From the NCBI RefSeq assembly GCF_027942865.1, contig NC_134510.1, forward strand, positions 10,754,743-10,818,742: 64,000 nucleotides of DNA, written 5' to 3'. This stretch comes from Odontesthes bonariensis (taxonomy: Eukaryota; Chordata; Actinopteri; Atheriniformes; Atherinopsidae). Numbering within the stretch: the stretch's first letter is position 1; every line of letters starts with the position of its first letter. The notes under the pieces were generated by a model. It searched no databases and had not been told where the DNA came from. It worked only from the letters and a program-made list of their open reading frames with translations. Of this stretch, positions 1 to 53,096 are shown piece by piece. Position numbers and translations under genes: made by a program.

Positions 1-360
1 TTTCCCGTTTACTATGGTGTTAAGTGCAAACCAAGACCTTATAATCAACAATGTGCTTTTGCTAATGATTCTGTCCTGCCCAAAGCACTGTGGAAGGTTG
101 TGACAACACAGCTAGTTGAGCTGTGGTCAGAAGATTCTCATGCAACAAGTGTCTTGGCTGTTGTTTAACAGGGCTCCTGAGGCAAACAAAAAGTAGGCAT
201 AGCATTTGGAAGCAAGAACTGTTCGGAAGTAAAGCGGCCACAATAATCTTTAAACAAGATGATGCAGTGGCAGAATAGCAATACGACATGGTATTGCTAA
301 GCAAGGAGTAAACTTGGGTTGCCTTGCCAGTGAAAATGTTTCCCTAGGAGAAGTCTGCAA

Positions 361-443
361 TGTCAGAAGTGTGATTTGAACCCACGCCTCCAGGGGAGAC
401 TGCGACCTGAACGCATCGCCTTAGACCGCTCGGCCATCCTGAC
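361..443 (-). tRNA. tRNA-Leu (CAG), unit 1
   Basis: The 83-nt gene has the long variable arm of class II tRNA and reads as vertebrate tRNA-Leu-CAG; anticodon loop TTCAGGT. It would decode CUG. A substitution in the T stem and one in the anticodon stem break pairs, so function of this copy is doubtful. Confidence 0.85.
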
Positions 444-693
444 TGCTAAAAGGAATATTTGACGACACTGTCGGCGGGCCCAGGCATCATTCCAACGAAT
501 ATGTGGGTCTGCGTTGTGTTCGTGTTGAAGGGGAATATTGACGAGGCATGCAGCTTCATGGAAGACTCTCCTTCTGAGTGATGGGACTGTGATAGCAATT
601 TTCCTGCACCTTGAAACGGGACACCAAAATCTTATTTCACTCCTCGGCGATAGTTGTCTTTTCGTCTGACGACTGTGTCAGTCACACAGAAAT

Positions 694-765
694 TCCTAGT
701 TAGTATAATGGACAGTATCTCCGCCTGTCACGCGAAAGATCGGGGTTCGATTCCCCGACGGGGAG
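694..765 (+). tRNA. tRNA-Asp (GTC), unit 1
   Basis: The 72-nt gene matches vertebrate tRNA-Asp-GTC, with loop CTGTCAC and a standard T loop TTCGATT. Acceptor position 5 is A instead of C and cannot pair with G68. One further anticodon-stem pair is broken (GCGAA). A T4 terminator follows at 775-778. Confidence 0.85.
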
Positions 766-1257
766 AGCTAGGTCTTTTATCAGCTGCCTGCCACCAAGTG
801 ATGATTGCTTTGATACTCTCACCCATCTTCGGCCTAAATGTCAATAGCCCCCTTCAAATAGCCTAACATGAGGCCAGGTTGCTTCGGTCAAAAGTCCTTT
901 CCCGTTTACTATGGTGTTAAGTGCAAACCAAGACCTTATAATCAACAATGTGCTTTTGCTAATGATTCTGTCCTGCACAAAGCACTGTGGAAGGTTGTGA
1001 CAACACAGCTAGTTGAGCTGTGGTCAGAAGATTCTCATGCAACAAGTGTCTTGGCTGTTGTTTAACAGGGCTCCTGAGGCAAACAAAAAGTAGGCATAGC
1101 ATTTGGAAGCAAGAACTCTTCTGAGGTAAAGCGGCCACAATAATCTTTAAACTAGATGATGCAGTGGCAGAATAGCAATATGACATGGTATTGCTAAACA
1201 AGGAGTAAACTTGAGTGGCCTTGCCAGAGAAAATGGTTCTCTAGGAGAAGTCTGCAA

Positions 1258-1340
1258 TGTCAGAAGTGGGATTTGAACCCACGCCTCCAGGGGAGACTGC
1301 GACCTTAACGCAGCGCCTTAGACCGCTCGGCCATCCTGAC
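1258..1340 (-). tRNA. tRNA-Leu (AAG), unit 2
   Basis: The body is the tRNA-Leu-CAG body, but anticodon base 34 is A (loop TTAAGGT). This would be read as IAG after editing and decode CUU/CUC/CUA. Stems are intact. Confidence 0.9.
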
Positions 1341-1590
1341 TACGAAAAGGAATATTTGACGACACTGTCGGCGGGCCCAGGCATCATTCCAGCGAATATG
1401 TGGGTCTGCGTTGTGTTCGTGTTGAAGGGGAATATTGACGAGGCATGCAGCTTCATGGAAGACTCTCCTTCTGAGTGATGGGACTGTGATAGCAATTTTC
1501 CTGCACCTTGAAACGGGACACCAAAATCTTATTTCACTCCTTGGCGATAGTTATCTTTTCGTCTGACGACTGTATCAGTCACACAGAAGT

Positions 1591-1662
1591 TCCTCGTTAG
1601 TATAATGGACAGTATCTCCGCCTGTCACGCGGAAGATTGGGGTTCGATTCCCCGAAGGGGAG
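1591..1662 (+). tRNA. tRNA-Asp (GTC), unit 2
   Basis: Acceptor C5 is present as in the vertebrate consensus. The 3' acceptor strand has an A for C opposite G6, and T-stem base 49 gives a wobble pair. Probably weakened. Confidence 0.85.
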
Positions 1663-2154
1663 AAAATGAGCTTTTATCAGCTGCCTGCCACCAAGTGATG
1701 ATTGTTTTGATACTCTCACCCATCTTCGGCCTAAATGTCAATAGTCCCCTTCAAATAGCCTAACATGAGGCCAGGTTGATTCGGTCAAAAGCCCTTTCCC
1801 GTTTACTATGGTGTTAAGTGCAAACCAAGACCTTATAATCAACAATGTGCTTTTGCTAATGATTCTGTCCTGCCCAAAGCACTGTAGAAGGTTGTGACAA
1901 CACAGCTAGTTGAGCTGTGGTCAGAAGATTCTCATGCAACAAGTGTCTTGGCTGTTGTTTAACAGGGCTCCTGAGGCAAACAAAAAGTAGGCATAGCATT
2001 TGGAAGCAAGAATTGTTCGGAAGTAAAGCGGCCACAATAATCTTTAAACAAGATGATGCAGTGGCAGAATAGCAATACGACATGGTATTGCTAAGCAAGA
2101 AGTAAACTTGGGTTGCCTTGCCAGTGAAAATGTTTCTCTAGGAGAAGTCTGCAA

Positions 2155-2237
2155 TGTCAGAAGTGGGATTTGAACCCACGCCTCCAGGGGAGACTGCAAC
2201 CTGAACGCAGCGCCTTAGACCGCTCGGCCATCCTGAC
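2155..2237 (-). tRNA. tRNA-Leu (CAG), unit 3
   Basis: Full-length tRNA-Leu with anticodon CAG. One anticodon-stem or variable-arm base differs from most units (gcaacc for gcgacc on the + strand). Confidence 0.88.
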
Positions 2238-2487
2238 TACTAAAAGGAATATTTGACGACACTGTCGGCGGGCCCAGGCATCATTCCAGCGAATATGTGG
2301 GTCTGCGTTGTGTTCGTGTTGAAGGGGAATATTGACGAGGCATGCAGCTTCATGGAAGACTCTCCTTCTGAGTGATGGGACTGTGATAGCAATTTTCCTG
2401 CACCTTGAAACGGGACACCAAAATCTTATTTCACTCCTCGGCGATAGTTGTCTTTTCGTCTGACGACTGTGTCAGTCACACAGAAAT

Positions 2488-2559
2488 TCCTAGTTAGTAT
2501 AATGGACAGTATCTCCGCCTGTCACGCGGAAGATCGGGGTTCGATTCCCCGACGGGGAG
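2488..2559 (+). tRNA. tRNA-Asp (GTC), unit 3
   Basis: Consensus tRNA-Asp apart from the A5:G68 acceptor mismatch. A T4 run follows. Confidence 0.88.
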
Positions 2560-3051
2560 AGCTAGGTCTTTTATCAGCTGCCTGCCACCAAGTGATGATT
2601 GCTTTGATACTCTCACCCATCTTCGGCCTAAATGTCAATAGCCCCCTTCAAATAGCCTAACATGAGGCCAGGTTGCTTCGGTCAAAAGTCCTTTCCCGTT
2701 TACTATGGTGTTAAGTGCAAACCAAGACCTTATAATCAACAATGTGCTTTTGCTAATGATTCTGTCCTGCCCAAAGCACTGTGGAAGGTTGTGACAACAC
2801 AGCTAGTTGAGCTGTGGTCAGAAGATTCTCATGCAACAAGTGTCTTGGCTGTTGTTTAACAGGGCTCCTGAGGCAAACAAAAAGTAGGCATAGCATTTGG
2901 AAGCAAGAACTCTTCTGAGGTAAAGCGGCCACAATAATCTTTAAACTAGATGATGCAGTGGCAGAATAGCAATATGACATGGTATTGCTAAGCAAGGAGT
3001 AAACTTGAGTGGCCTTGCCAGAGAAAATGGTTCTCTAGGAGAAGTCTGCAA

Positions 3052-3134
3052 TGTCAGAAGTGGGATTTGAACCCACGCCTCCAGTGGAGACTGCGACCTG
3101 AACGCAGCGCCTTAGACCGCTCGGCCATCCTGAC
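3052..3134 (-). tRNA. tRNA-Leu (CAG), unit 4
   Basis: Full-length tRNA-Leu-CAG. The variable arm has a change (CCAGTGGAG on the + strand) that is shared only with unit 7. Confidence 0.9.
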
Positions 3135-3382
3135 TACTAAAAGGAATATTTGACGACACTGTCGGCGGGCCCAGGCATCATTCCAGCGAATATGTGGGTC
3201 TGCGTTGTGTTCGTGTTGAAGGGGAATATTGATGAGGCATGCAGCTTCATGGAAGACTCTCCTTCTGAGTGATGGGACTGTGATAGCAATTTTCCTGCAC
3301 CTTGAAACGGGACAACAAAATCTTATTTCACTCCTTGGCGATAGTTGTCTTTTCATCTGACGACTGTATCAGTCACAGAAAT

Positions 3383-3454
3383 TCCTAGTTAGTGTAATGG
3401 ACAGTATCTCCGCCTGTCACGCGGAAGATCGGGGTTCGATTCCCCGACGGGGAG
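3383..3454 (+). tRNA. tRNA-Asp (GTC), unit 4
   Basis: tRNA-Asp with the A5:G68 mismatch and a D-loop variant AGTGTAATGG shared with unit 7. A 2-bp deletion just upstream accounts for the short step of this unit. Confidence 0.87.
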
Positions 3455-3946
3455 AGCTTGGTCTTTTATCAGCTGCCTGCCACCAAGTGATGATTGCTTT
3501 GATACTCTCACCCATCTTCGGCCTAAATGTCAATAGCCCCCTTCAAATAGCCTAACATGAGGCCAGGTTGCTTCGGTCAAAAGTCCTTTCCCGTTTACTA
3601 TGGTGTTAAGTGCAAACCAAGACCTTATAATCAACAATGTGCTTTTGCTAATGATTCTGTCCTGCCCAAAGCACTGTGGAAGGTTGTGACAACACAGCTA
3701 GTTGAGCTGTGGTCAGAAGATTCTCATGCAACAAGTGTCTTGGCTGTTGTTTAACAGGGCTCCTGAGGCAAACAAAAAGTAGGCATAGCATTTGGAAGCA
3801 AGAACTCTTCGGAGGTAAAGCGGCCACAATAATCTTTAAACTAGATGATGCAGTGGCAGAATAGCAATACGACATGGTATTGCTAAGCAAGGAGTAAACT
3901 TGGGTTGCCTTGCCAGAGAAAATGGTTCTCTAGGAGAAGCTTGCAA

Positions 3947-4029
3947 TGTCAGAAGTGGGATTTGAACCCACGCCTCCAGGGGAGACTGCGACCTTAACGC
4001 AGCGCCTTAGACCGCTCGGCCATCCTGAC
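3947..4029 (-). tRNA. tRNA-Leu (AAG), unit 5
   Basis: Full-length and well paired, with anticodon AAG on the Leu-CAG body. Confidence 0.9.
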
Positions 4030-4279
4030 TACTAAAAGGTATATTTGACGACACTGTCGGCGGGCCCAGGCATCATTCCAGCGAATATGTGGGTCTGCGT
4101 TGTGTTCGTGTTGAAGGGGAATATTGACGAGGCATGCAGCTTCATGGAAGACTCTCCTTCTGAGTGATGGGACTGTGATAGCAATTTTCCTGCACCTTGA
4201 AACGGGACACCAAAATCTTATTTCACTCCTTGGCGATAGTTGTCTTTTCGTCTGACGACTGTGTAAGTCACACAGAAAT

Positions 4280-4351
4280 TCCTAGTTAGTATAATGGACA
4301 GTATCTCCGCCTGTCACGCGGAAGATCGGGGTTCGATTCCCTGACGGGGAG
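4280..4351 (+). tRNA. tRNA-Asp (GTC), unit 5
   Basis: A5:G68 mismatch, plus one T-stem C-to-T change that leaves a G:U pair. Confidence 0.86.
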
Positions 4352-4843
4352 AGCTAGGTCTTTTATCAGCTGCCTGCCACCAAGTGATGATTGCTTTGAT
4401 ACTCTCACCCATCTTCGGCCTAAATGTCAATAGCCCCCTTCAAATAGCCTAACATGAGGCCAGGTTGCTTCGGTCAAAAGTCCTTTCCCGTTTACTATGG
4501 TGTTAAGTGCAAACCAAGACCTTATAATCAACAATGTGCTTTTGCTAATGATTCTGTCCTGCCCAAAGCACTGTGGAAGGTTGTGACAACACAGCTAGTT
4601 GAGCTGTGGTCAGAAGATTCTCATGCAACAAGTGTCTTGGCTGTTGTTTAACAGGGCTCCTGAGGCAAACAAAAAGTAGGCATAGCATTTGGAAGCAAGA
4701 ACTCTTCTGAGGTAAAGCGGCCACAATAATCTTTAAACTAGATGATGCAGTGGCAGAATAGCAATATGACATGGTATTGCTAAACAAGGAGTAAACTTGA
4801 GTGGCCTTGCCAGAGAAAATGGTTCTCTAGGAGAAGTCTGCAA

Positions 4844-4926
4844 TGTCAGAAGTGGGATTTGAACCCACGCCTCCAGGGGAGACTGCGACCTTAACGCAGC
4901 GCCTTAGACCACTCGGCCATCCTGAC
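4844..4926 (-). tRNA. tRNA-Leu (AAG), unit 6
   Basis: Full-length with anticodon AAG. One D-arm base differs (CCACTCGG on the + strand). Confidence 0.9.
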
Positions 4927-5176
4927 TACTAAAAGGAATATTTGACGACACTGTCGGCGGGTCCAGGCATCATTCCAGCGAATATGTGGGTCTGCGTTGT
5001 GTTCGTGTTGAAGGGGAATATTGACGAGGCATGCAGCTTCATGGAAGACTCTCCTTCTGAGTGATGGGACTGTGATAGCAATTTTCCTGCACCTTGAAAC
5101 GGGACACCAAAATCTTATTTCACTCCTTGGCGATAGTTGTCTTTTCATCTGACGACTGTATCAGTCACACAGAAAT

Positions 5177-5248
5177 TCCTCGTTAGTATAATGGACAGTA
5201 TCTCCGCCTGTCACGCGGAAGATCGGGGTTCGATTCCCCGACGGGGAG
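5177..5248 (+). tRNA. tRNA-Asp (GTC), unit 6
   Basis: One of the two cleanest Asp copies (with unit 10): C5 pairs with G68, the anticodon loop is CTGTCAC, and the T arm is consensus. The tail after it (AAAATGCGC then T4) is shared with unit 9. Confidence 0.93.
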
Positions 5249-5740
5249 AAAATGCGCTTTTATCAGCTGCCTGCCACCAAGTGATGATTGTTTTGATACT
5301 CTCACCCATCTTCGGCCTAAATGTCAATAGCCCCCTTCAAATAGCCTAACATGAGGCCAGGTTGCTTCGGTCAAAAGCCCTTTCCCGTTTACTATGGTGT
5401 TAAGTGCAAACCAAGACCTTATAATCAACAATGTGCTTTTGCTAATGATTCTGTCCTGCCCAAAGCACTGTGGAAGGTTGTGACAACACAGCTAGTTGAG
5501 CTGTGGTCAGAAGATTCTCATGCAACAAGTGTCTTGGCTGTTGTTTAACAGGGCTCCTGAGGCAAACAAAAAGTAGGCATAGCATTTGGAAGCAAGAACT
5601 GTTCGGAAGTAAAGCGGCCACAATAATCTTTAAACAAGATGATGCAGTGGCAGAATAGCAATACGACATGGTATTGCTAAGCAAGGAGTAAACTTGGGTT
5701 GCCTTGCCAGAGAATATGTTTCTCTAGGAGAAGTCTGCAA

Positions 5741-5823
5741 TGTCAGAAGTGGGATTTGAACCCACGCCTCCAGTGGAGACTGCGACCTGAACGCAGCGCC
5801 TTAGACCGCTCGGCCATCCTGAC
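5741..5823 (-). tRNA. tRNA-Leu (CAG), unit 7
   Basis: Full-length tRNA-Leu-CAG with the same variable-arm change as unit 4. Confidence 0.9.
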
Positions 5824-6073
5824 TACTAAAAGGAATATTTGACGACACTGTCGGCGGGCCCAGGCATCATTCCAGCGAATATGTGGGTCTGCGTTGTGTT
5901 CGTGTTGAAGGGGAATATTGATGAGGCATGCAGCTTCATGGAAGACTCTCCTTCTGAGTGATGGGACTGTGATAGCAATTTTCCTGCACCTTGAAACGGG
6001 ACACCAAAATCTTATTTCACTCCTTGGCGATAGTTGTCTTTTCATCTGACGACTGTATCAGTCACACAGAAAT

Positions 6074-6145
6074 TCCTAGTTAGTGTAATGGACAGTATCT
6101 CCGCCTGTCACGCGGAAGATCGGGGTTCGATTCCCCGACGGGGAG
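6074..6145 (+). tRNA. tRNA-Asp (GTC), unit 7
   Basis: A5:G68 mismatch and the AGTGTAATGG D-loop variant of unit 4. Confidence 0.87.
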
Positions 6146-6637
6146 AGCTTGGTCTTTTATCAGCTGCCTGCCACCAAGTGATGATTGCTTTGATACTCTC
6201 ACCCATCTTCGGCCTAAATGTCAATAGCCCCCTTCAAATAGCCTAACATGAGGCCAGGTTGCTTCGGTCAAAAGTCCTTTCCCGTTTACTATGGTGTTAA
6301 GTGCAAACCAAGACCTTATAATCAACAATGTGCTTTTGCTAATGATTCTGTCCTGCCCAAAGCACTGTGGAAGGTTGTGACAACACAGCTAGTTGAGCTG
6401 TGGTCAGAAGATTCTCATGCAACAAGTGTCTTGGCTGTTGTTTAACAGGGCTCCTGAGGCAAACAAAAAGTAGGCATAGCATTTGGAAGCAAGAACTGTT
6501 CGGAAGTAAAGCGGCCACAATAATCTTTAAACAAGATGATGCAGTGGCAGAATAGCAATACGACATGGTATTGCTAAGCAAGAAGTAAACTTGGGTTGCC
6601 TTGCCAGTGAAAATGTTTCTCTAGGGGAAGTCTGCAA

Positions 6638-6720
6638 TGTCAGAAGTGGGATTTGAACCCACGCCTCCAGGGGAGACTGCGACCTGAACGCAGCACCTTA
6701 GACCGCTCGGCCATCCTGAC
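6638..6720 (-). tRNA. tRNA-Leu (CAG), unit 8
   Basis: tRNA-Leu-CAG with one D-arm change (GCAGCACC on the + strand) that recurs in units 10, 12-15 and 17. Confidence 0.9.
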
Positions 6721-6970
6721 TACTAAAAGGAATATTTGACGACACTGTCGGCGGGCCCAGGCATCATTCCAGCGAATATGTGGGTCTGCGTTGTGTTCGT
6801 GTTGAAGGAGAATATTGACGAGGCATGCAGCTTCATGGAAGACTCTCCTTCTGAGTGATGGTACTGTGATAGCAATTTTCCTGCACCTTGAAACGGGACA
6901 CCAAAATCTTATTTCACTCCTTGGCGATAGTTGTCTTTTCGTCTGACGACTGTGTCAGTCACACAGAAAT

Positions 6971-7042
6971 TCCTAGTTAGTATAATGGACAGTATCTCCG
7001 CCTGTCAAGCGGAAGATCGGGGTTCGATTCCCCGACGGGGAG
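6971..7042 (+). tRNA. tRNA-Asp (GTC), unit 8
   Basis: A5:G68 mismatch. Anticodon-loop base 38 is A instead of C. Confidence 0.83.
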
Positions 7043-7534
7043 AGCTAGGTCTTTTATCAGCTGCCTGCCACCAAGTGATGATTGTTTTGATACTCTCACG
7101 CATCTTCGGCCTAAATGTCAATAGCCCCCTTCAAATAGCCTAACATGAGGCCAGGTTGCTTCGGTCAAAAGCCCTTTCCCGTTTACTATGGTGTTAAGTG
7201 CAAACCAAGACCTTATAATCAACAATGTGCTTTTGCTAATGATTCTGTCCTGCCCAAAGCACTGTGGAAGGTTGTGACAACACAGCTAGTTGAGCTGTGG
7301 TCAGAAGATTCTCATGCAACAAGTGTCTTGGCTGTTGTTTAACAGGGCTCCTGAGGCAAACAAAAAGTAGGCATAGCATTTGGAAGCAAGAACTGTTCGG
7401 AAGTAAAGCGGCCACAATAATCTTTAAACAAAATGATGCAGTGGCAGAATAGCAATACGACATGGTATTGCTAAGCAAGGAGTAAACTTGGGTTGCCTTG
7501 CCAGAGAAAATGTTTCTCTAGGAGAAGTCTGGAA

Positions 7535-7617
7535 TGTCAGAAGTGTGATTTGAACCCACGCCTCCAGGGGAGACTGCGACCTTAACGCTGCGCCTTAGAC
7601 CGCTCGGCCATCCTGAC
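7535..7617 (-). tRNA. tRNA-Leu (AAG), unit 9
   Basis: Anticodon AAG. One anticodon-stem base and one T-stem base are changed, so this copy is probably weakened. Confidence 0.82.
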
Positions 7618-7867
7618 TACTAAAAGGAATATTTGACGACACTGTTGGCGGGTCCAGGCATCATTCCAGCGAATATGTGGGTCTGCGTTGTGTTCGTGTT
7701 GAAGGGGAATATTGACGAGGCATGCAGCTTCATGGAAGACTCTCCTTCTGAGTGATGGGACTGTGATAGCAATTTTCCTGCACCTTGAAACGGGACACCA
7801 AAATCTTATTTCACTCCTTGGCGATAGTTGTCTTTTCGTCTGACGACTGTATCAGTCACACAGAAAT

Positions 7868-7939
7868 TCCTCGTTAGTATAATGGACAGTATCTCCGCCT
7901 GTCACGCGGAAGATTGGGGTTCGATTCCCCGACGGGGAG
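7868..7939 (+). tRNA. tRNA-Asp (GTC), unit 9
   Basis: C5 form. T49 makes a wobble pair; otherwise consensus. Confidence 0.9.
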
Positions 7940-8431
7940 AAAATGCGCTTTTATCAGCTGCCTGCCACCAAGTGATGATTGCTTTGATACTCTCACCCAT
8001 CTTCGGCCTAAATGTCAATAGCCCCCTTCAAATAGCCTAACATGAGGCCAGGTTGCTTCGGTCAAAAGTCCTTTCCCGTTTACTATGGTGTTAAGTGCAA
8101 ACCAAGACCTTATAATCAACAATGTGCTTTTGCTAATGATTCTGTCCTGCCCAAAGCACTGTGGAAGGTTGTGACAACACAGCTAGTTGAGCTGTGGTCA
8201 GAAGATTCTCATGCAACAAGTGTCTTGGCTGTTGTTTAACAGGGCTCCTGAGGCAAACAAAAAGTAGGCATAGCATTTGGAAGCAAGAACTGTTCGGAAG
8301 TAAAGCGGCCACAATAATCTTTAAACAAGATGATGCAGTGGCAGAATAGCAATACGACATGGTATTGCTAAGCAAGGAGTAAACTTGGGTTGCCTTGCCA
8401 GTGAAAATGTTTCTCTAGGAGAAGTCTGCAA

Positions 8432-8514
8432 TGTCAGAAGTGGGATTTGAACCCACGCCTCCAGGGGAGACTGCGACCTGAACGCAGCACCTTAGACCGC
8501 TCGGCCATCCTGAC
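8432..8514 (-). tRNA. tRNA-Leu (CAG), unit 10
   Basis: tRNA-Leu-CAG with the GCAGCACC D-arm variant. Stems otherwise intact. Confidence 0.9.
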
Positions 8515-8764
8515 TACTAAAAGGAATATTTGACGACACTGTCGGCGGGCCCAGGCATCATTCCAGCGAATATGTGGGTCTGCGTTGTGTTCGTGTTGAA
8601 GGGGAATATTGACGAGGCATGCAGCTTCATGGAAGACTCTCCTTCTGAGTGATGGGACTGTGATAGCAATTTTCCTGCACCTTGAAACGGGACACCAAAA
8701 TCTTATTTCACTCCTTGGCGATAGTTGTCTTTTCGTCTGACGACTGTATCAGTCACACAGAAGT

Positions 8765-8836
8765 TCCTCGTTAGTATAATGGACAGTATCTCCGCCTGTC
8801 ACGCGGAAGATCGGGGTTCGATTCCCCGACGGGGAG
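8765..8836 (+). tRNA. tRNA-Asp (GTC), unit 10
   Basis: Consensus copy: C5:G68, loop CTGTCAC, T arm intact, T4 run after it. A good candidate for a functional gene. Confidence 0.93.
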
Positions 8837-9328
8837 AGCTAGGTCTTTTATCAGCTGCCTGCCACCAAGTGATGATTGTTTTGATACTCTCACGCATCTT
8901 CGGCCTAAATGTCAATAGCCCCCTTCAAATAGCCTAACATGAGGCCAGGTTGCTTCGGTCAAAAGCCCTTTCCCGTTTACTATGGTGTTAAGTGCAAACC
9001 AAGACCTTATAATCAACAATGTGCTTTTGCTAATGATTCTGTCCTGCCCAAAGCACTGTGGAAGGTTGTGACAACACAGCTAGTTGAGCTGTGGTCAGAA
9101 GATTCTCATGCAACAAGTGTCTTGGCTGTTGTTTAACAGGGCTCCTGAGGCAAACAAAAAGTAGGCATAGCATTTGGAAGCAAGAACTGTTCGGAAGTAA
9201 AGCGGCCACAATAATCTTTAAACAAGATGATGCAGTGGCAGAATAGCAATACGACATGGTATTGCTAAGCAAGGAGTAAACTTGGGTTGCCTTGCCAGTG
9301 AAAATGTTTCCCTAGGAGAAGTCTGCAA

Positions 9329-9411
9329 TGTCAGAAGTGTGATTTGAACCCACGCCTCCAGGGGAGACTGCGACCTGAACGCATCGCCTTAGACCGCTCG
9401 GCCATCCTGAC
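9329..9411 (-). tRNA. tRNA-Leu (CAG), unit 11
   Basis: Anticodon CAG. Shares the T-stem and anticodon-stem changes of unit 1. Confidence 0.85.
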
Positions 9412-9661
9412 TGCTAAAAGGAATATTTGACGACACTGTCGGCGGGCCCAGGCATCATTCCAACGAATATGTGGGTCTGCGTTGTGTTCGTGTTGAAGGG
9501 GAATATTGACGAGGCATGCAGCTTTATGGAAGACTCTCCTTCTGAGTGATGGGACTGTGATAGCAATTTTCCTGCACCTTGAAACGGGACACCAAAATCT
9601 TATTTCACTCCTTGGCGATAGTTGTCTTTTCGTCTGACGACTGTATCAGTCACACAGAAGT

Positions 9662-9733
9662 TCCTCGTTAGTATAATGGACAGTATCTCCGCCTGTCACG
9701 CGGAAGATAGGGGTTCGATTCCCCAACGGGGAG
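9662..9733 (+). tRNA. tRNA-Asp (GTC), unit 11
   Basis: C5 form. T-stem bases 49 and 65 are both A, which breaks the closing pair. Confidence 0.84.
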
Positions 9734-10225
9734 AGCTAGGTCTTTTATCAGCTGCCTGCCACCAAGTGATGATTGTTTTGATACTCTCACGCATCTTCGG
9801 CCTAAATGTCAATAGCCCCCTTCAAATAGCCTAACATGAGGCCAGGTTGCTTCGGTCAAAAGCCCTTTCCCGTTTACTATGGTGTTAAGTGCAAACCAAG
9901 ACCTTATAATCAACAATGTGCTTTTGCTAATGATTCTGTCCTGCCCAAAGCACTGTGGAAGGTTGTGACAACACAGCTAGTTGAGCTGTGGTCAGAAGAT
10001 TCTCATGCAACAAGTGTCTTGGCTGTTGTTTAACAGGGCTCCTGAGGCAAACAAAAAGTAGGCATAGCATTTGGAAGCAAGAACTGTTCGGAAGTAAAGC
10101 GGCCACAATAATCTTTAAACAAGATGATGCAGTGGCAGAATAGCAATACGACATGGTATTGCTAAGCAAGGAGTAAACTTGGGTTGCCTTGCCAGTGAAA
10201 ATGTTTCTCTAGGAGAAGTCTGCAA

Positions 10226-10308
10226 TGTCAGAAGTGGGATTTGAACCCACGCCTCCAGGGGAGACTGCGACCTGAACGCAGCACCTTAGACCGCTCGGCC
10301 ATCCTGAC
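10226..10308 (-). tRNA. tRNA-Leu (CAG), unit 12
   Basis: tRNA-Leu-CAG with the GCAGCACC D-arm variant. Confidence 0.9.
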
Positions 10309-10558
10309 TACTAAAAGGAATATTTGACGACACTGTCGGCGGGCCCAGGCATCATTCCAGCGAATATGTGGGTCTGCGTTGTGTTCGTGTTGAAGGGGAA
10401 TATTGACGAGGCATGCAGCTTCATGGAAGACTCTCCTTCTGAGTGATGGGACTGTGATAGCAATTTTCCTGCACCTTGAAACGGGACACCAAAATCTTAT
10501 TTCACTCCTTGGCGATAGTTGTCTTTTCGTATGACGACTGTATCAGTCACACAGAAGT

Positions 10559-10630
10559 TCCTCGTTAGTATAATGGACAGTATCTCCGCCTGTCACGCGG
10601 AAGATAGGGGTTCGATTCCCCGACGGGGAG
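10559..10630 (+). tRNA. tRNA-Asp (GTC), unit 12
   Basis: C5 form. A49 faces G65 in the T stem, one mismatch. Confidence 0.86.
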
Positions 10631-11122
10631 AGCTAGGTCTTTTATCAGCTGCCTGCCACCAAGTGATGATTGTTTTGATACTCTCACGCATCTTCGGCCT
10701 AAATGTCAATAGCCCCCTTCAAATAGCCTAACATGAGGCCAGGTTGCTTCGGTCAAAAGCCCTTTCCCGTTTACTATGGTGTTAAGTGCAAACCAAGACC
10801 TTATAATCAACAATGTGCTTTTGCTAATGATTCTGTCCTGCCCAAAGCACTGTGGAAGGTTGTGACAACACAGCTAGTTGAGCTGTGGTCAGAAGATTCT
10901 CATGCAACAAGTGTCTTGGCTGTTGTTTAACAGGGCTCCTGAGGCAAACAAAAAGTAGGCATAGCATTTGGAAGCAAGAACTGTTCGGAAGTAAAGCGGC
11001 CACAATAATCTTTAAACAAGATGATGCAGTGGCAGAATAGCAATACGACATGGTATTGCTAAGCAAGGAGTAAACTTGGGTTGCCTTGCCAGGGAAAATG
11101 TTTCTCTAGGAGAAGTCTGCAA

Positions 11123-11205
11123 TGTCAGAAGTGTGATTTGAACCCACGCCTCCAGGGGAGACTGCAACCTGAACGCAGCACCTTAGACCGCTCCGCCATC
11201 CTGAC
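11123..11205 (-). tRNA. tRNA-Leu (CAG), unit 13
   Basis: Anticodon CAG. T-stem change, plus a D-stem change (CTCCGCC on the + strand) shared with units 14 and 17. Confidence 0.82.
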
Positions 11206-11455
11206 TACTAAAAGGAATATTTGACGACACTGTCGGCGGGCCCAGGCATCATTCCAGCGAATATGTGGGTCTGCGTTGTGTTCGTGTTGAAGGGGAATAT
11301 TGACGAGGCATGCAGCTTCATGGAAGACTCTCCTTCTGAGTGATGGGACTGTGATAGCAATTTTCCTGCACCTTGAAACGGGACACCAAAATCTTATTTC
11401 ACTCCTTGGCGATAGTTGTCTTTTAATCTGACGACTGTATCAGTCACACAGAAAT

Positions 11456-11527
11456 TCCTCGTTAGTATAATGGACAGTATCTCCGCCTGTCACGCGGAAG
11501 ATAGGGGTTCGATTCCCCGACGGGGAG
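11456..11527 (+). tRNA. tRNA-Asp (GTC), unit 13
   Basis: C5 form with A49:G65 mismatch. The T4 terminator present after the other copies is here CATTTA, so termination may fail. Confidence 0.82.
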
Positions 11528-12019
11528 AGCTAGGTCATTTATCAGCTGCCTGCCACCAAGTGATGATTGTTTTGATACTCTCACGCATCTTCGGCCTAAA
11601 TGTCAATAGCCCCCTTCAAATAGCCTAACATGAGGCCAGGTTGCTTCGGTCAAAAGCCCTTTCCCGTTTACTATGGTGTTAAGTGCAAACCAAGACCTTA
11701 TAATCAACAATGTGCTTTTGCTAATGATTCTGTCCTGCCCAAAGCACTGTGGAAGGTTGTGACAACACAGCTAGTTGAGCTGTGGTCAGAAGATTCTCAT
11801 GCAACAAGTGTCTTGGCTGTTGTTTAACAGGGCTCCTGAGGCAAACAAAAAGTAGGCATAGCATTTGGAAGCAAGAACTGTTCGGAAGTAAAGCGGCCAC
11901 AATAATCTTTAAACAAGATGATGCAGTGGCAGAATAGCAATACGACATGGTATTGCTAAGCAAGGAGTAAACTTGGGTTGCCTTGCCAGTGAAAATGTTT
12001 CTCTAGGAGAAGTCTGCAA

Positions 12020-12102
12020 TGTCAGAAGTGTGATTTGAACCCACGCCTCCAGGGGAGACTGCGACCTGAACGCAGCACCTTAGACCGCTCCGCCATCCTG
12101 AC
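12020..12102 (-). tRNA. tRNA-Leu (CAG), unit 14
   Basis: Anticodon CAG, with the D-stem and T-stem changes of unit 13. Confidence 0.82.
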
Positions 12103-12352
12103 TACTAAAAGGAATATTTGACGACACTGTCGGCGGGCCCAGGCATCATTCCAGCGAATATGTGGGTCTGCGTTGTGTTCGTGTTGAAGGGGAATATTGA
12201 CGAGGCATGCAGCTTCATGGAAGACTCTCCTTCTGAGTGATGGGACTGTGATAGCAATTTTCCTGCACCTTGAAACGGGACACCAAAATCTTATTTCACT
12301 CCTTGGCGATAGTTGTCTTTTAATCTGACGACTGTATCAGTCACACAGAAAT

Positions 12353-12424
12353 TCCTCGTTAGTATAATGGACAGTATCTCCGCCTGTCACGCGGAAGATC
12401 GGGGTTCGATTCCCTGACGGGGAG
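12353..12424 (+). tRNA. tRNA-Asp (GTC), unit 14
   Basis: C5 form with one G:U pair in the T stem. Confidence 0.9.
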
Positions 12425-12916
12425 AGCTTGGTCTTTTATCAGCTGCCTGCCACCAAGTGATGATTGCTTTGATACTCTCACCCATCTTCGGCCTAAATGT
12501 CAATAGCCCCCTTCAAATAGCCTAACATGAGGCCAGGTTGCTTCGGTCAAAAGTCCTTTCCCGTTTACTATGGTGTTAAGTGCAAACCAAGACCTTATAA
12601 TCAACAATGTGCTTTTGCTAATGATTCTGTCCTGCCCAAAGCACTGTGGAAGGTTGTGACAACACAGCTAGTTGAGCTGTGGTCAGAAGATTCTCATGCA
12701 ACAAGTGTCTTGGCTGTTGTTTAACAGGGCTCCTGAGGCAAACAAAAAGTAGGCATAGCATTTGGAAGCAAGAACTGTTCGGAAGTAAAGCGGCCACAAT
12801 AATCTTTAAACAAGATGATGCAGTGGCAGAATAGCAATACGACATGGTATTGCTAAGCAAGGAGTAAACTTGGGTTGCCTTGCCAGTGAAAATGTTTCTC
12901 TAGGAGAAGTCTGCAA

Positions 12917-12998
12917 TGTCAGAAGTGGGATTTGAACCCACGCCTCCAGGGGAGACTGCGACCTGAACGCAGCACCTTAGACCGTCGGCCATCCTGAC
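12917..12998 (-). tRNA. tRNA-Leu (CAG), unit 15, one base short
   Basis: 82 nt: one G is missing from the D loop, near the conserved GG that docks with the T loop. Anticodon CAG. Possibly non-functional. Confidence 0.78.
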
Positions 12999-13248
12999 TA
13001 CTAAAAGGAATATTTGACGACACTGTCGGCGGGCCCAGGCATCATTCCAGCGAATATGTGGGTCTGCGTTGTGTTCGTGTTGAAGGGGAATATTGACGAG
13101 GCATGCAGCTTCATGGAAGACTCTCCTTCTGAGTGATGGGACTGTGATAGCAATTTTCCTGCACCTTGAAACGGGACACCAAAATCTTATTTCACTCCTT
13201 GGCGATAGTTGTCTTTTCGTCTGACGACTGTAACAGTCACACAGAAGT

Positions 13249-13320
13249 TCCTCGTTAGTATAATGGACAGTATCTCCGCCTGTCACGCGGAAGATCGGGG
13301 TTTGATTCCCCGACGGGGAG
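13249..13320 (+). tRNA. tRNA-Asp (GTC), unit 15
   Basis: C5 form. The T loop has T in place of invariant C56, which is also part of the B box, so both transcription and folding may suffer. Confidence 0.8.
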
Positions 13321-13812
13321 AGCTAGGTCTTTTATCAGCTGCCTGCCACCAAGTGATGATTGTTTTGATACTCTCACGCATCTTCGGCCTAAATGTCAAT
13401 AGCCCCCTTCAAATAGCCTAACATGAGGCCAGGTTGCTTCGGTCAAAAGCCCTTTCCCGTTTACTATGGTGTTAAGTGCAAACCAAGACCTTATAATCAA
13501 CAATGTGCTTTTGCTAATGATTCTGTCCTGCCCAAAGCACTGTGGAAGGTTGTGACAACACAGCTAGTTGAGCTGTGGTCAGAAGATTCTCATGCAACAA
13601 GTGTCTTGGCTGTTGTTTAACAGGGCTCCTGAGGCAAACAAAAAGTAGGCATAGCATTTGGAAGCAAGAACTGTTCGGAAGTAAAGTGGCCACAATAATC
13701 TTTAAACAAGATGATGCAGTGGCAGAATAGCAATACGACATGGTATTGCTAAGCAAGGAGTAAACTTGGGTTGCCTTGCCAGAGAAAATGTTTCTCTAGG
13801 AGAAGTCTGGAA

Positions 13813-13895
13813 TGTCAGAAGTGGGATTTGAACCCACGCCTCGAGGGGAGACTGCGACCTTAACGCATCGCCTTAGACCGCTCGGCCATCCTGAC
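13813..13895 (-). tRNA. tRNA-Leu (AAG), unit 16
   Basis: Anticodon AAG. One variable-arm change and one anticodon-stem change. Confidence 0.85.
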
Positions 13896-14145
13896 TGCTA
13901 AAAGGAATATTTGACGACACTGTCGGCGGGCCAAGGCATCATTCCAGCGAATATGTGGGTCTGCGTTGTGTTCGTGTTGAAGGGGAATATTGACGAGGCA
14001 TGCAGCTTCATGGAAGACTCTCCTTCTGAGTGATGGGACTGTGATAGCAATTTTCCTGCACCTTGAAACCGGACACCAAAATCTTATTTCACTCCTTGGC
14101 GATAGTTGTCTTTTCGTCTGACGACTGTGTCAGTCACACAGAAAT

Positions 14146-14217
14146 TCCTCGTTAGTATAATGGACAGTATCTCCGCCTGTCACGCGGAAGATAGGGGTTC
14201 GATTCCCTGACGGGGAG
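14146..14217 (+). tRNA. tRNA-Asp (GTC), unit 16
   Basis: C5 form with two T-stem changes (A49 and a G:U pair). Confidence 0.82.
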
Positions 14218-14709
14218 AGCTAGGTCTTTTATCAGCTGCCTGCCACCAAGTGATGATTGTTTTGATACTCTCACCCATCTTCGGCCTAAATGTCAATAGC
14301 CCCCTTCAAATAGCCTAACATGAGGCCAGGTTGCTTCAGTCAAAAGCCCTTTCCCGTTTACTATGGTGTTAAGTGCAAACCAAGACCTTATAATCAACAA
14401 TGTGCTTTTGCTAATGATTCTGTCCTGCCCAAAGCACTGTGGAAGGTTGTGACAACACAGCTAGTTGAGCTGTGGTCAGAAGATTCTCATGCAACAAGTG
14501 TCTTGGCTGTTGTTTAACAGGGCTCCTGAGGCAAACAAAAAGTAGGCATAGCATTTGGAAGCAAGAACTGTTCGGAAGTAAAGCGGCCACAATAATCTTT
14601 AAACAAGATGATGCAGTGGCAGAATAGCAATACGACATGGTATTGCTAAGCAAGGAGTAAACTTGGGTTGCCTTGCCAGTGAAAATGTTTCTCTAGGAGA
14701 AGTCTGCAA

Positions 14710-14792
14710 TGTCAGAAGTGTGATTTGAACCCACGCCTCCAGGGGAGACTGCGACCTGAACGCAGCACCTTAGACCGCTCCGCCATCCTGAC
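14710..14792 (-). tRNA. tRNA-Leu (CAG), unit 17
   Basis: Anticodon CAG, with the D-stem and T-stem changes of units 13 and 14. Confidence 0.82.
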
Positions 14793-15042
14793 TACTAAAA
14801 GGAATATTTGACGACACTGTCGGCGGGCCCAGGCATCATTCCAGCGAATATGTGGGTCTGCGTTGTGTTCGTGTTGAAGGGGAATATTGACGAGGCATGC
14901 AGCTTCATGGAAGACTCTCCCTCTGAGTGATGGGACTGTGATAGCAATTTTCCTGCACCTTGAAACGGGACACCAAAATCTTATTTCACTCCTTGGCGAT
15001 AGTTGTCTTTTCGTCTGACGACTGTATCAGTCACACAGAAGT

Positions 15043-15094
15043 TCCTCGTTAGTATAATGGACAGTATCTCCGCCTGTCACGCGGAAGATCGGGG
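15043..15094 (+). pseudogene. tRNA-Asp, unit 17, cut before the T arm
   Basis: The gene runs normally through the anticodon arm and stops at GATCGGGG, where segment A begins. It lacks the T arm, B box and 3' acceptor strand, so it cannot work. It marks the array breakpoint. Confidence 0.9.
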
Positions 15095-19767: not shown

Positions 19768-20063
19768 GCCGGGTGCTGTGGCGCGCGCCTGTAATCCAAG
19801 CTACCGGGAGGCTGAGGCTGGTGGATCGCTTGAGCTCAGGAGCTCTGAGCTGCAGTGGACTATGCCGATCGGGTGTCCGCACTAAGCTCGGTACCGATAT
19901 GGTGCTCCTGGGGGAGCCCGGGACCACCAGGTTGTCTAAGGAGGGGAGGACCGGCCCAGGTCGGAAACGGAGCAGGTCAAAGCCCCCGTGCCGCTCAGTA
20001 GTGGGATCGCACCTGTGATTAGACGCTGCAGTGCAGCCTGAGTCATACAGCGGGACCCAGTCT
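19768..20063 (+). ncRNA. 7SL (SRP) RNA gene, copy 1
   Basis: The 296-nt gene aligns along its length with vertebrate 7SL RNA (about 299 nt). The 5' Alu domain opens GCCGGGTGCTGTGG and has the UGU-containing loops. The middle has GGTGTCCGCACTAAG. The S domain keeps helix 6 and helix 8 with GGAAACGGAGCAGGTCAA, the SRP54 contact. The 3' strand ends GACCCAGTCT followed by a T5 run, the Pol III terminator (20063-20067). The RNA is the scaffold of the signal recognition particle in cytosolic ER targeting. With the upstream CRE-like site and full length, this looks like a gene rather than an Alu-type retrocopy: it has no A tail. Confidence 0.93.
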
Positions 20064-20548
20064 TTTTACACTCTTTGTTCTCTCCAACAAAATACTGGGA
20101 CAACACACACGCTCCAACATCACCTCTTTACACGTTACAGCAGTTTCTCTATCTTCTCTTTTCCATTGAAAAGCACAGCTGTTTCTTGGACCTGCAGCGC
20201 CCCCACCTGGAGAAGACGAGCAACGACCATCAGCCACATCACTCACCGCTGCTTCACAGATACACTCTGCTCCATCACTCATTCAATCAAGCTGCTGCTG
20301 TCACATCACACACACTTTGAGACTTTTACTGCTTTGATTAATTGAATACGTCCACAGAGATTCTTTTGGGGTGACAATGAGACACACACAACATAAATAT
20401 GCAAACATTTTAGACTGTCTATCGTGTGACCTTCTCTACAGTTCTTGGATGTTTGTTAGATTGTAATATCAGCACTTGACATCTCCGAGTGTGTGCAACA
20501 CTCAGACTATAAGACAGTGATGCAGATGAACTGCAAGAATTCTTACTG
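20064..20548 (+). repeat. 3' flank of 7SL, shared with copy 2
   Basis: Matches 43816-44303 closely, and part of it matches 49998-50226 inverted. It contains no gene that can be supported. Duplicated flanks show that the 7SL copies spread by DNA duplication, not retrotransposition. Confidence 0.85.
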
Positions 20549-31458: not shown

Positions 31459-31977
31459 CAATTAGGGATGCACCGATACCACTTTTTTTCAAACCGATAC
31501 GATACCGATACTTGGATCTACCACAAAAAAATGTAATGAATTGGAAGACAGGTTTTGGTCTCACTAGCCCAGTGGTTCCCAAACTTTTTGTGCCAAAGGC
31601 ACACCAAAGGACAAGTAAAAATCTCAAGGCACACCTATTGTGCCAAATAGCCCTTATAACATGTGTTATCATTCATATCATGTAAAATATCTGTAAATGT
31701 GCATAATTATTTACTAATGCCAAATACAATGTGACAAGACAACTATTACTCATGAAATATTTATTAACAAAATATTTCAAAAATTAATTTGAAACTTTAT
31801 CAAATGAGGCTTCATCAAAGCAGCAACAGTCATTTAAACCAGAGAGTCACAAAATTAAAAATGAGGCAAAGGAAACTCAGCACGCAGAAATTTAGCATAG
31901 AGAACTGTCAATGCAAGGAAGCCACTTTGTCCATGGTCCTGAACTACAAATTATTATTGCAACATTTCAGCGATCAG
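31459..31977. mobile_element. hAT terminal fragments
   Basis: TAGGGATGCACCGATACC followed by ACCGATAC repeats at 31463-31510 is the terminus of a common fish hAT family. CAGTGGTTCCCAAACTTTTTG at about 31570 is the terminus of a second hAT (Charlie-like) family. Partners at the other ends are not found, so both are remnants. Confidence 0.55.
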
Positions 31978-32059
31978 CATGGATGGCTGAGTTGTCTAAG
32001 GCACTGCGTTCAGGTCGCAATCTTCCCTGGAGGCGTGGGTTCAAATCCCACTCCTGACA
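31978..32059 (+). pseudogene. tRNA-Leu (CAG), 5' acceptor strand damaged
   Basis: From GGATGGCTGA to CTCCTGACA it matches tRNA-Leu-CAG, but the 5' acceptor strand GTCAGGA is altered at the array edge and the D and anticodon stems carry changes. Confidence 0.75.
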
Positions 32060-32551
32060 TTGCAGACTTCTCCTAGAGAAATATTTTCTCTGGCAAGGCA
32101 ACTCAAGTTTACGCCTTTCTTAGCAATACCGTGTCGTATTGCTATTCTGCCACTGCATCATCTAGTTTAAAGATTATTGTGGCCGCTTTACCTCCGAAGA
32201 GTTCTTGCTTCCAAATGCTATGCCTACTATTTGTTTGCCTCAGGAGCCCTGTTAAACAACAGCCAAGACACTTGTTGCATGAGAATCTTCTGACCACAGC
32301 TCAACAAGCTGTGTTGTCACAACCTTCTACAGTGCTTTGGGCAGGACAGAATCATTAGCAAAAGCACATTGTTCATTGTAAGGTCTTGGATTGCACTTAA
32401 CACCATAGTAAACGGGAAAGGGCTTTTGACCGAAGAAACCTGGCCTGATGTTAGGCTATTTGAAGGGGGCTATTGACATTTAGGCCGAAGATGGGTGAGA
32501 GTATCAAAGCAATCATCACTTGGTGTCAGGCAGCTGATAAAAGACCGAGCT

Positions 32552-32623
32552 CGCCCCGTCAGGGAATCGAACCTCGATCTTCCGCGTGACAGGCGGAGAT
32601 ACTGTCCATTATACTAACGAGGA
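32552..32623 (-). tRNA. tRNA-Asp (GTC)
   Basis: C5 form with loop CTGTCAC. The acceptor 3' strand and T stem have substitutions (GACGGGGCG end, AGGTTCGATTCCCT arm), so it may be inactive. Confidence 0.78.
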
Positions 32624-32873
32624 ATTTCTGTGTGACTGACACAGTCGTCAGAAGAAAAGACAACTATCGCCAAGGAGTGAAATAAGATTTTCGTGTCCCG
32701 TTTCAAGGTGCAGGAAAATTGCTATCACAGTCCCATCACTCAGAAGGAGAGTCTTCCATGAAGCTGCATGCCTCGTCAATATTCCCCTTCAACACGAACA
32801 CAACGCAGACCCACATATTCGCTGGAATGATGCCTGGGCCCGCCGACAGTGTCGTCAAATATTCCTTTTAGTA

Positions 32874-32956
32874 GTCAGGATGGCCGAGCGGTCTAAGGCG
32901 CTGCGTTCAGGTCGCATTCTCCCCTGGAGGCGTGGGTTCAAATCCCACTTCTGACA
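32874..32956 (+). tRNA. tRNA-Leu (CAG)
   Basis: Full-length tRNA-Leu-CAG; one change after the anticodon stem (CGCATTCTC). Otherwise well paired. Confidence 0.87.
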
Positions 32957-33449
32957 TTGCAGACTACTCCTAGAGAACCATTTTCTCTGGCAAGGCAACT
33001 CAAGTTTACTCCTTGCTTAGCAATACCATGTCGTATTGCTATTCTGCCACTGCATCATCTAGTTTAAAGATTATTGTGGCCGCTTTACCTCCGAAGAGTT
33101 CTTGCTTCCAAATGCTATGCCTACTTTTTGTTTGCCTCAGGAGCCCTGTTAAACAACAGCCAAGACACTTGTTGCATGAGAATCTTCTGACCACAGCTCA
33201 ACAAGCTGTGTTGTCACAACCTTTTACAGTGCTTTGGGCAGGACAGAATCATTAGCAAAAGGCACATTGTTGATTATAAGGTCTTGGTTTGCACTTAACA
33301 CCACAGTAAACGGGCAAGGGCTTTTGACCGAAGCAACCTGGCCTCATGTTAGGCTATTTGAAGGGGGCTATTGACATTTAGGCCGAAGATGGGTGAGAGT
33401 ATCAAAACAATCATCACTTGGTGGCAGGCAGCTGATAAAAGACCTAGCT

Positions 33450-33521
33450 CTCCCCGTAGGGGAATCGAACCCCAATCTTCCACGTGACAAGCAGAGATAC
33501 TGTCCATTATACTAACGAGGA
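33450..33521 (-). tRNA. tRNA-Asp (GTC), weakened
   Basis: C5 form. The anticodon stem has two changes (CTGCTTGTCACGTGG), so pairing is poor. Confidence 0.75.
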
Positions 33522-33771
33522 ATTTCTGTGTGACTGACACAGTCGTCAGACGAAAAGACAACTATCGCCAAGGAGTGAAATAAGATTTTCGTGTCCCGTT
33601 TCAAGGTGCAGGAAAATTGCTATCACAGTCCCATCACTCAGAAGGAGAGTCTTCCATGAAGCTGCATGCCTCGTCAATATTCCCCTTCAACACGAACACA
33701 ACGCAGACCCACATAATAACTGGAATGATGCCTGGGCCCGCCGACAGTGTCGTCAAATATTCCTTTTAGCA

Positions 33772-33807
33772 GTCAGGATGGCCGAGCGATCTAAGGCGCT
33801 GCGTTAA
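33772..33807 (+). pseudogene. tRNA-Leu cut in the anticodon loop
   Basis: GTCAGGATGGCCGAGCG runs normally to CTGCGTTAA and then joins AGGCCTACAGAAAG, a piece of the hAT sequence of 35441-37294. The retained loop bases suggest the AAG type. Confidence 0.85.
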
Positions 33808-43519: not shown

Positions 43520-43815
43520 GCCGGGTGCTGTGGCGCGCGCCTGTAATCCAAGCTACCGGGAGGCTGAGGCTGGTGGATCGCTTGAGCTCAGGAGCTCTGA
43601 GCTGCAGTGGGCTATGCCGATCGGGTGTCCGCACTAAGCTCGATACCGATATGGTGGTCCTGGGGGAGCCTGGGACCACCAGGTCGTCTAAGGAGGGGAG
43701 AACCGGCCCAGGTTGGAAACGGAGCAGGTCAAAGCCCCCGTGCCGCTCAGTAGTGGGATCGCACCTGTGATTAGACGCTGCAGTGCAGCCTGAGTCATAC
43801 AGCGGGACCCAGTCT
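43520..43815 (+). ncRNA. 7SL (SRP) RNA gene, copy 2 (left arm)
   Basis: 296 nt with the same domains as copy 1: the Alu domain GCCGGGTGCTGTGG, the S-domain GGAAACGGAGCAGGTCAA, and a T5 run after GACCCAGTCT. It differs by several substitutions, some in helices (GGTGGTCCTGGGGGAGCC, CCAGGTTGG). The upstream octamer is TGATATCA, so promoter strength may be lower. Confidence 0.9.
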
Positions 43816-53087: not shown

Positions 53088-53096
53088 GGTGAATGA

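Follow-up and report, generated by a model that had tools for sequence, protein, structure and literature searches.

A tandem array of divergent tRNA-Leu and tRNA-Asp genes in the fish Odontesthes bonariensis looks like a new case of high-copy repeat-encoded tRNA genes

In zebrafish, as far as the available parts of the sources cited here and below go, the tRNA isodecoders found in eggs are repeat-encoded and the late ones are scattered (PMC11417395), the repeat-encoded early or maternal isodecoders lying mostly on chromosome 4 (PMC11417395, PMC11574265). Asp-GTC is among the families that switch isodecoder, and two of its members, Asp-GTC-2 and Asp-GTC-1, were probed by northern blot, by which Asp-GTC-2 was detected (PMC11417395). 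High-copy tandem tRNA genes, probably methylated, also form the oocyte-type arrays of Xenopus (PMC11500080, PMC3565088), and tandem clusters are described from Arabidopsis, where the SYY cluster is expressed in the root cap (PMC12308677), and from Entamoeba (PMC2652664).

Here we analysed a window of 64,000 nucleotides from O. bonariensis, together with the genome around it (945 Mb, 187 contigs). The locus looks like a new case of this known kind, here with a divergent Leu/Asp unit. As in zebrafish, most copies lie on one chromosome, one isodecoder sits in repeats and another is dispersed, Asp-GTC is the family concerned and both 15-base zebrafish probes match genes here; unlike the zebrafish pairs, which in the available text are mostly K-N, K-S and R-T and nearly all parallel (PMC2888827), the unit is a head-to-head Leu/Asp pair. 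The unit's gene content and orientation also set it apart from the Xenopus arrays. It shares with the SYY cluster a tandem arrangement of genes for two amino acids, clustered variants distinct from the dispersed ones and decayed copies, although that cluster belongs to a plant and has its expression shown. With the Entamoeba arrays it has in common tandem units of tRNA genes, but those carry short tandem repeats between genes (PMC2652664) and Tandem Repeats Finder (TRF) found none within 1–15094, so that the array is not of the Entamoeba type. A search of titles and abstract openings in the open-licence literature, a weak test, returned no earlier description of a divergent Leu/Asp array.

The window holds 40 tRNA genes detected by ARAGORN, all 40 of which passed the Rfam tRNA gathering score. 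The sequence-only reading had described a head-to-tail tandem repeat of a divergent Leu/Asp pair, and ARAGORN bears this out: between 361 and 14792, 17 Leu genes on the minus strand alternate with 16 complete Asp genes on the plus strand in a unit of about 897 bp. The features of the array in the window are as follows.

1..15094, main tandem array, window part: 17 Leu, 16 complete Asp, 897-bp unit
361..1257, plus strand, repeat unit U01, starting at the low end of a Leu gene and stopping one base short of the following one
361..443, minus strand, tRNA-Leu(CAG), first of 17 (ARAGORN, Rfam)
1258, 2155, 3052, 3947, 4844, 5741, 6638, 7535, 8432, 9329, 10226, 11123, 12020, 12917, 13813 and 14710, minus strand, starts of the other 16 Leu genes
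1258, 3947, 4844, 7535 and 13813, minus strand, starts of the Leu genes with an AAG anticodon
693..766, plus strand, tRNA-Asp(GTC), first of 16 (Rfam match 694–765; ARAGORN one base longer at each end)
1590, 2487, 3382, 4279, 5176, 6073, 6970, 7867, 8764, 9661, 10558, 11455, 12352, 13248 and 14145, plus strand, starts of the other 15 complete Asp genes
444..692, divergent intergenic segment, 249 bp between the two 5′ ends, with no extra constraint seen
767..1257, long unit spacer, tail to tail, origin of a 39-base tag used in the genome search

Unit length was 897 bp in 14 of the 16 complete window units and 895 and 896 bp in the remaining two, with a mean pairwise identity of 97.9%. The pair geometry, said earlier to be fixed in all units, is nearly so: the Leu and Asp 5′ ends (ARAGORN) are 250 bp apart in 15 of the 16 main pairs and 248 bp apart in one. 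A 17th Asp gene is severed by the end of the array, where BLAST self-alignment stops at 15094, within the gene. The count of 17 units thus holds for the window but is set by its edge; the array runs 26 kb further upstream, and the full array (array 1; C6:10,728,558–10,769,836) covers 41.3 kb with 46 Leu positions and 45 complete units. The window holds the right-hand third of one among several long Leu/Asp arrays. The Arabidopsis SYY cluster has far fewer units. Large heterogeneous tRNA gene clusters of teleosts are defined by neighbours less than 1000 nt apart with different amino acids and by at least 50 members (PMC2888827, available in part); here the gaps between genes are about 250 and 491–493 bp, Leu lies next to Asp, and the 46 Leu positions are joined by Asp in 45 complete units. 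In array 1, a TTTT run stands at the usual downstream place in 43 Leu and 43 Asp genes out of 45 each, and the Asp anticodon GTC is kept in all 45 complete units. At least one stem pair is broken in 38 of the 82 readable genes (Leu 12/37, Asp 26/45), so gene count is not the same as functional copy number.

Genome-wide, the spacer tag occurred 861 times (reversed-pattern control, 0), and among the matches listed all but three fall within a single C6 domain that measures at least 1.8 Mb. The earlier estimate of tens of gene copies per locus thus fits a single array, but across the genome there are hundreds. A second array, sampled at C6:11.94–11.97 Mb, has a period of 898 bp. The arrays sit in this segmentally duplicated domain, which also holds many 7SL genes, and the two outlying arrays reported from the window were recovered by ARAGORN, one inverted with two Leu and two Asp genes, the other with two Leu and one Asp.

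31975..33807, minus strand, inverted short array, 2 Leu and 2 Asp, genes 31977–33522; the unit match ends within a Leu gene on both sides
56702..57974, plus strand, short array, 2 Leu (AAG) and 1 Asp, genes 56944–57922
19768..20066, plus strand, full-length 7SL (SRP) RNA gene copy, same duplicated domain
43520..43818, plus strand, full-length 7SL RNA gene copy
50224..50522, minus strand, full-length 7SL RNA gene copy

The right junction of the array at 56702..57974 recurs in four further short arrays that lie upstream of the window. Both outlying arrays represent truncated copies, and flanks in common with other islands mark them as parts of segmental duplications. A SINE, which would be a tRNA-like head on an unrelated body scattered by retroposition, was considered as an origin and rejected, since the units are head to tail, each with a pair of complete tRNA genes, one per strand, and form islands with shared duplicated flanks. 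In a Pfam search of nine window open reading frames, two gave hAT dimerisation matches and one a sub-threshold DDE match; no host protein gene was recognised among the nine. The best 47 scored of 27,704 first-look 5S rRNA candidates were all on C16, not on the array chromosome.

The Asp gene of the arrays is an isodecoder distinct from the dispersed canonical one, as judged from gene sequence. In the available text on zebrafish, a repeat isodecoder has many copies in a repetitive region and a different isodecoder lies in isolated dispersed genes (PMC11417395); here the array type has at least 639 copies at up to one mismatch in 41 bases (among 98 exact matches listed, 97 on C6 and 1 on C18), and the canonical type is found in at least one gene, on C21, with no other tRNA gene detected by ARAGORN in the readable part of 4 kb. 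The array Asp agrees with the zebrafish Asp-GTC-2 probe in 15 of 15 bases, an identity of 15 bases that assigns neither probe to an early or late stage. This probe had 18 matches in the window, one in the truncated Asp gene and the others in 17 of the 19 complete ones, and the 33 loci matched by the Asp-GTC-1 probe include the dispersed Asp gene and none in the window. Relative to the dispersed gene, the array Asp has both partners of one anticodon-stem pair changed, from C-G to T-A, and because this change is compensatory it points to past function.

From these comparisons we think it fairly probable that the locus belongs to a Pol III gene domain of maternal type, maintained by the turnover of units. 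It would be a relative of the egg-supply tRNA arrays of zebrafish and frog, because it has hundreds of paired copies and its Asp matches a zebrafish embryo tRNA probe; the domain would then be the counterpart of the zebrafish repeat-encoded maternal or early genes and of the Xenopus oocyte-type tandem genes. High dosage would allow rapid stocking of tRNA in the growing oocyte or early embryo, and somatic cells would be served by the dispersed canonical genes. Unequal crossing-over and block duplication would keep the average unit intact while single copies decay freely; block turnover is seen in 16 unit pairs with at most two differences, which lie at lags of 2 to 10, with none at larger lags. 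Germ-line Pol III activity on methylated DNA would leave a mutation footprint over genes and flanks. Counting against this reading, the best-scoring 5S genes lie off the array chromosome, and the available part of one zebrafish report describes tRNA genes in large clusters as almost fully CpG-methylated in embryos at 3 and 5.7 hpf, and most predicted tRNA genes as lacking open chromatin (PMC11574265). If the zebrafish rule (repeat-encoded, maternal; dispersed, somatic) holds here with a different unit, it can be read from the genome sequence by itself.

Variation among units bears on this reading. No purifying selection on single copies is visible, and stem-breaking variants in array 1 occur at the chance rate (Leu, 15 versus 14.5 expected; Asp, 11 versus 8.8). 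Variants are moderately in excess in genes and their flanks over spacer. In the main array, the 317 sites of genes plus 40 bp hold 24 singletons and the other 580 sites hold 12 (p = 1.2e-4); private variants of seven outlying units (40/317 versus 40/580, p = 0.005) and all variable sites of array 2 (37/317 versus 34/580, p = 0.003) lean the same way. In a circular-shift test, which respects clustering, the shifts out of 897 that reached the observed value numbered 28 for main-array singletons, 44 for all main-array variants, 38 for the outlying units, 56 for all array-2 variants, 124 for array-2 variants absent from array 1 and 21 for the union of private variants. CpG sites are more variable (26/62 versus 89/835 elsewhere, p = 2e-9) and C>T or G>A changes make up 20 of the 30 CpG variants, the pattern that germline methylation would be expected to give. 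CpG content is ruled out as the cause of the higher variation in genes, as the excess persists among non-CpG singletons of the main array (19/279 versus 9/556, p = 1.7e-4). Two outlying units taken alone lack a gene excess (6/314 gene versus 23/1160 other sites; flanks 11/320), and a footprint general to the Pol III genes of the domain is ruled out by its fourteen 7SL copies, which lack one (gene 29/299, flanks 6/80, distal 31/342). A conserved element in the 249-bp segment was likewise rejected, since the between-gene part (15/169 variable) shows no greater conservation than does the long spacer (34/411). Between window units and array 2 the consensus differs at 1 of 157 gene sites and at 9 of 580 spacer and between-segment sites; with both nearly unchanged, this comparison is no test of gene constraint. 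With 46 to hundreds of units, the array supplies natural replicates for the question of whether germ-line Pol III transcription is mutagenic to the genes transcribed.

Several other readings would produce parts of this picture. The excess in genes may stem from gene conversion between arrays and not from transcription-linked mutation, which would be compatible with any of the other readings; all four gametes are present in 10% to 34% of site pairs, depending on distance, which means that exchange between units is common, and both sampled arrays have a multi-base variant immediately 3′ of Asp. We hold conversion as the cause to be rather unlikely, as the excess persists when singletons or variants private to a unit are counted, and the single dispersed Asp gene that was read is flanked by unrelated sequence, so that it cannot donate flank variants. 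Assembly error we regard as very improbable. Near-identical unit blocks could be mis-stacked; yet the contig is 42.2 Mb long, the array is bounded by non-array flanks, the mean difference between its units is 20 bases, and the second array is distinct in period and variants.

A largely silent satellite is a more general alternative, in which an accidental divergent pair was spread by segmental duplication and unequal crossing-over and most copies are untranscribed and decay neutrally. The lack of visible purifying selection, the shared flanks as passive duplication, the CpG hypermutability that suggests methylation and the even evolution of 7SL copies and their surroundings all agree with it, as do the methylated and mostly closed clusters described in the available zebrafish text (PMC11574265). 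We consider it possible but doubtful, for it leaves unexplained why private variants are in excess in genes and flanks, an excess itself moderate by the shift test, and also a compensated, distinct Asp isodecoder matching the zebrafish one detected by northern blot. That hundreds of copies, most with terminators in array 1, supply all tissues with Leu and Asp tRNA constitutively and at high dosage seems decidedly improbable, given that in the available zebrafish sources repeat-encoded isodecoders are early-type (PMC11417395) and tRNA level does not track gene copy number (PMC11574265, PMC11417395), and that a canonical Asp gene is retained elsewhere.

Finally, the Leu anticodon is mixed: CAG in 12 and AAG in 5 genes of the main array in the window. 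Among otherwise exact Leu 43-mers genome-wide, AAG has already drawn level with CAG (166 versus 165; reversed controls, 0), which would suit a self-mutating tRNA reservoir, where germline Pol III transcription raises mutation over the genes, no copy is protected, turnover spreads anticodons and egg pools are partly miscoding. We judge such a reservoir improbable; five Asp genes with GTT are also altered in the T-loop/B-box and may be dead, and the moderate footprint statistics count against it as well. Along array 1, in which 39 of 46 Leu positions have a readable anticodon and 7 are partly unreadable, all 16 readable genes of the first 22 units have AAG, as do 7 of 23 in the last 24, and the array thus allows the change between CAG and AAG to be tracked along its length. 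Overall, the anticodons met were CAG, AAG and CAA for Leu and GTC for Asp, with GTT, ATC or GAC in a few Asp copies.

The tandem tRNA gene domain is real and very large. In the window, ARAGORN found 40 tRNA genes, all of which (40/40) passed the Rfam tRNA threshold, and 33 of these are the alternating Leu (−) and Asp (+) genes of 1–15094. Together with a unit length of 897 bp in 14 of the 16 complete window units, this bears out the main point of the sequence-only reading, which had proposed a tandem array of divergent Leu/Asp genes there. Mean identity among the window units is 97.9%, and in 15 of 16 main pairs the 5′ ends of the Leu and Asp genes lie 250 bp apart (ARAGORN). The window occupies C6:10754743–10818742. 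Read over 314 kb (the window extended by 200 kb on its upstream side and by 50 kb on its downstream side), the main array spans C6:10,728,558 to 10,769,836 and contains 46 Leu positions and 45 complete units. Seven shorter islands, each of ~1–3 units, occur in both orientations; one runs off the edge of the 314-kb stretch, and none lies in the 50 kb downstream of the window.

The genome comprises 945 Mb in 187 contigs. A 39-base spacer tag gave 861 matches with up to three mismatches (reversed control, 0), and those listed lie at C6 10.58 to 12.14 Mb, bar three on C2. Among the matches listed, exact Leu 43-mers lie at C6 10.51 to 12.35 Mb (CAG) and 10.73 to 12.15 Mb (AAG). The spacing of listed matches suggests several further arrays in both orientations; array 2 (C6:11.94–11.97 Mb), the one further array read, repeats every 898 bp and contains 32 complete units. 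Domains of this type are already known from zebrafish and Xenopus. No report of the divergent Leu/Asp unit was found among the titles and abstract openings listed by searches of open-licence papers.

One right-hand junction is common to five islands, the left-hand junction of the main array recurs in another, and island flank matches are 94.6–100% identical, which marks the islands as portions of segmentally duplicated DNA. Within the main array, no more than two bases separate the members of 16 unit pairs; these pairs are confined to lags of 2 to 10 units, with none at greater lags, which points to local duplication of unit blocks. Across the first 22 main-array units, every Leu gene that is readable (16) carries the AAG anticodon, and the last 24 Leu genes comprise 16 CAG, 7 AAG and 1 unread. 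AAG is an established form, because exact 43-mers number at least 166 genome-wide, versus at least 165 for CAG. In array 2, 5/32 Asp genes have the Asn-type anticodon GTT and 4/32 Leu genes have CAA. Single Asp-derived genes elsewhere carry ATC (L007:97–170) and GAC (L032:1930–2003). Another tRNA cluster (C2:38279501–38283500; Pro TGG, two Thr AGT, Asp GTC) surrounds a fragmented copy of the unit.

In the main array, genes with their 40-bp flanks (317 sites) hold 24 variants confined to a single unit, against 12 at the remaining 580 sites (p=1.2e-4), an excess that persists without CpG sites and recurs in the seven outlying units (p=0.005) and at all variable sites of array 2 (p=0.003). No gene excess was seen in an early count restricted to two outlying units. 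In a circular-shift test that preserves clustering, the observed value was reached in 28 of 897 shifts when main singletons were counted and in 44 with every main variant included. The outlying units gave 38, array 2 gave 56 with all its variants and 124 with those absent from array 1, and the union of private variants gave 21; support for the excess is moderate. For the 7SL genes of this domain, the fourteen copies compared lack such an excess (gene 29/299, flanks 6/80, distal 31/342). Elevated mutation in the flanks of tRNA genes is reported and attributed to transcription (PMC8113476, citing Thornlow 2018). CpG sites are variable at 26/62 versus 89/835 other sites (odds ratio 6), as expected of methylated DNA.

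All stem pairs are intact in 25 of 37 readable full-length array 1 Leu genes (omitting 7 incompletely read genes and 1 with a deletion), and all scored pairs, D-arm pairs left out, in 19 of 45 Asp genes. Among distinct variants of array 1 and the seven outlying units, pairs are broken by 15/31 in Leu (14.5 expected under random placement) and 11/28 in Asp (8.8 expected); at this rate, single gene copies are not visibly under selection. Window-unit and array 2 consensus genes differ at 1/157 sites, too few for a test, and the spacer and between-segment at 9/580.

A canonical tRNA-Asp pattern has at least one genome match with up to one mismatch, a dispersed gene on C21 that is followed by a long run of T; the array-type Asp has 639. 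Zebrafish northern probes Asp-GUC-1 and Asp-GUC-2 are complementary to GGTAAGTATCCCCGC and GGACAGTATCTCCGC, respectively (PMC11417395). GGTAAGTATCCCCGC is present at the dispersed gene's locus and absent from the other 32 loci searched and from the window. GGACAGTATCTCCGC has 18 window matches, each within an Asp gene (17 of 19 complete genes and the truncated one). In zebrafish, repetitive regions are reported to encode the isodecoders found in eggs and at early stages, and scattered genes the later ones, with some encoded in both; Asp-GTC switches from 5 hpf (PMC11417395). By this analogy, the array-type Asp is probably the early isodecoder, and a maternal role is inferred for the tRNA domain.

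The window also contains:
19768–20066, full-length 7SL RNA gene (Rfam)
43520–43818, full-length 7SL RNA gene (Rfam)
50224–50522, full-length 7SL RNA gene (Rfam)
28322–29707, −, 461-aa charged, coiled-coil-looking ORF
35441–37129, −, hAT-like ORF (Pfam hAT dimerisation match)
54976–56664, +, second, stop-split copy of the hAT-like ORF (Pfam hAT dimerisation match)
39675–40486, 277-bp tandem repeat (2.9 copies, 99% matches)

The hAT-like ORFs sit in an inverted duplication (35402–39151 / 52915–56703) and have relatives at several upstream loci. The 461-aa ORF has no Pfam match; longer copies occur at two other loci, L015 and L009. BLAST found 14 near-complete 7SL-bearing copies (~0.8–1 kb) in the 314 kb. 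Genome-wide, among 26 scored 7SL matches from a partly scored pool of 13,007 first-look candidates, 24 lie on C6 at 8.3–12.1 Mb and the two best-scoring on C29. Last, 47 scored 5S rRNA genes lie at C16:12.55–12.76 Mb, often ~1.7 kb apart and in both orientations.
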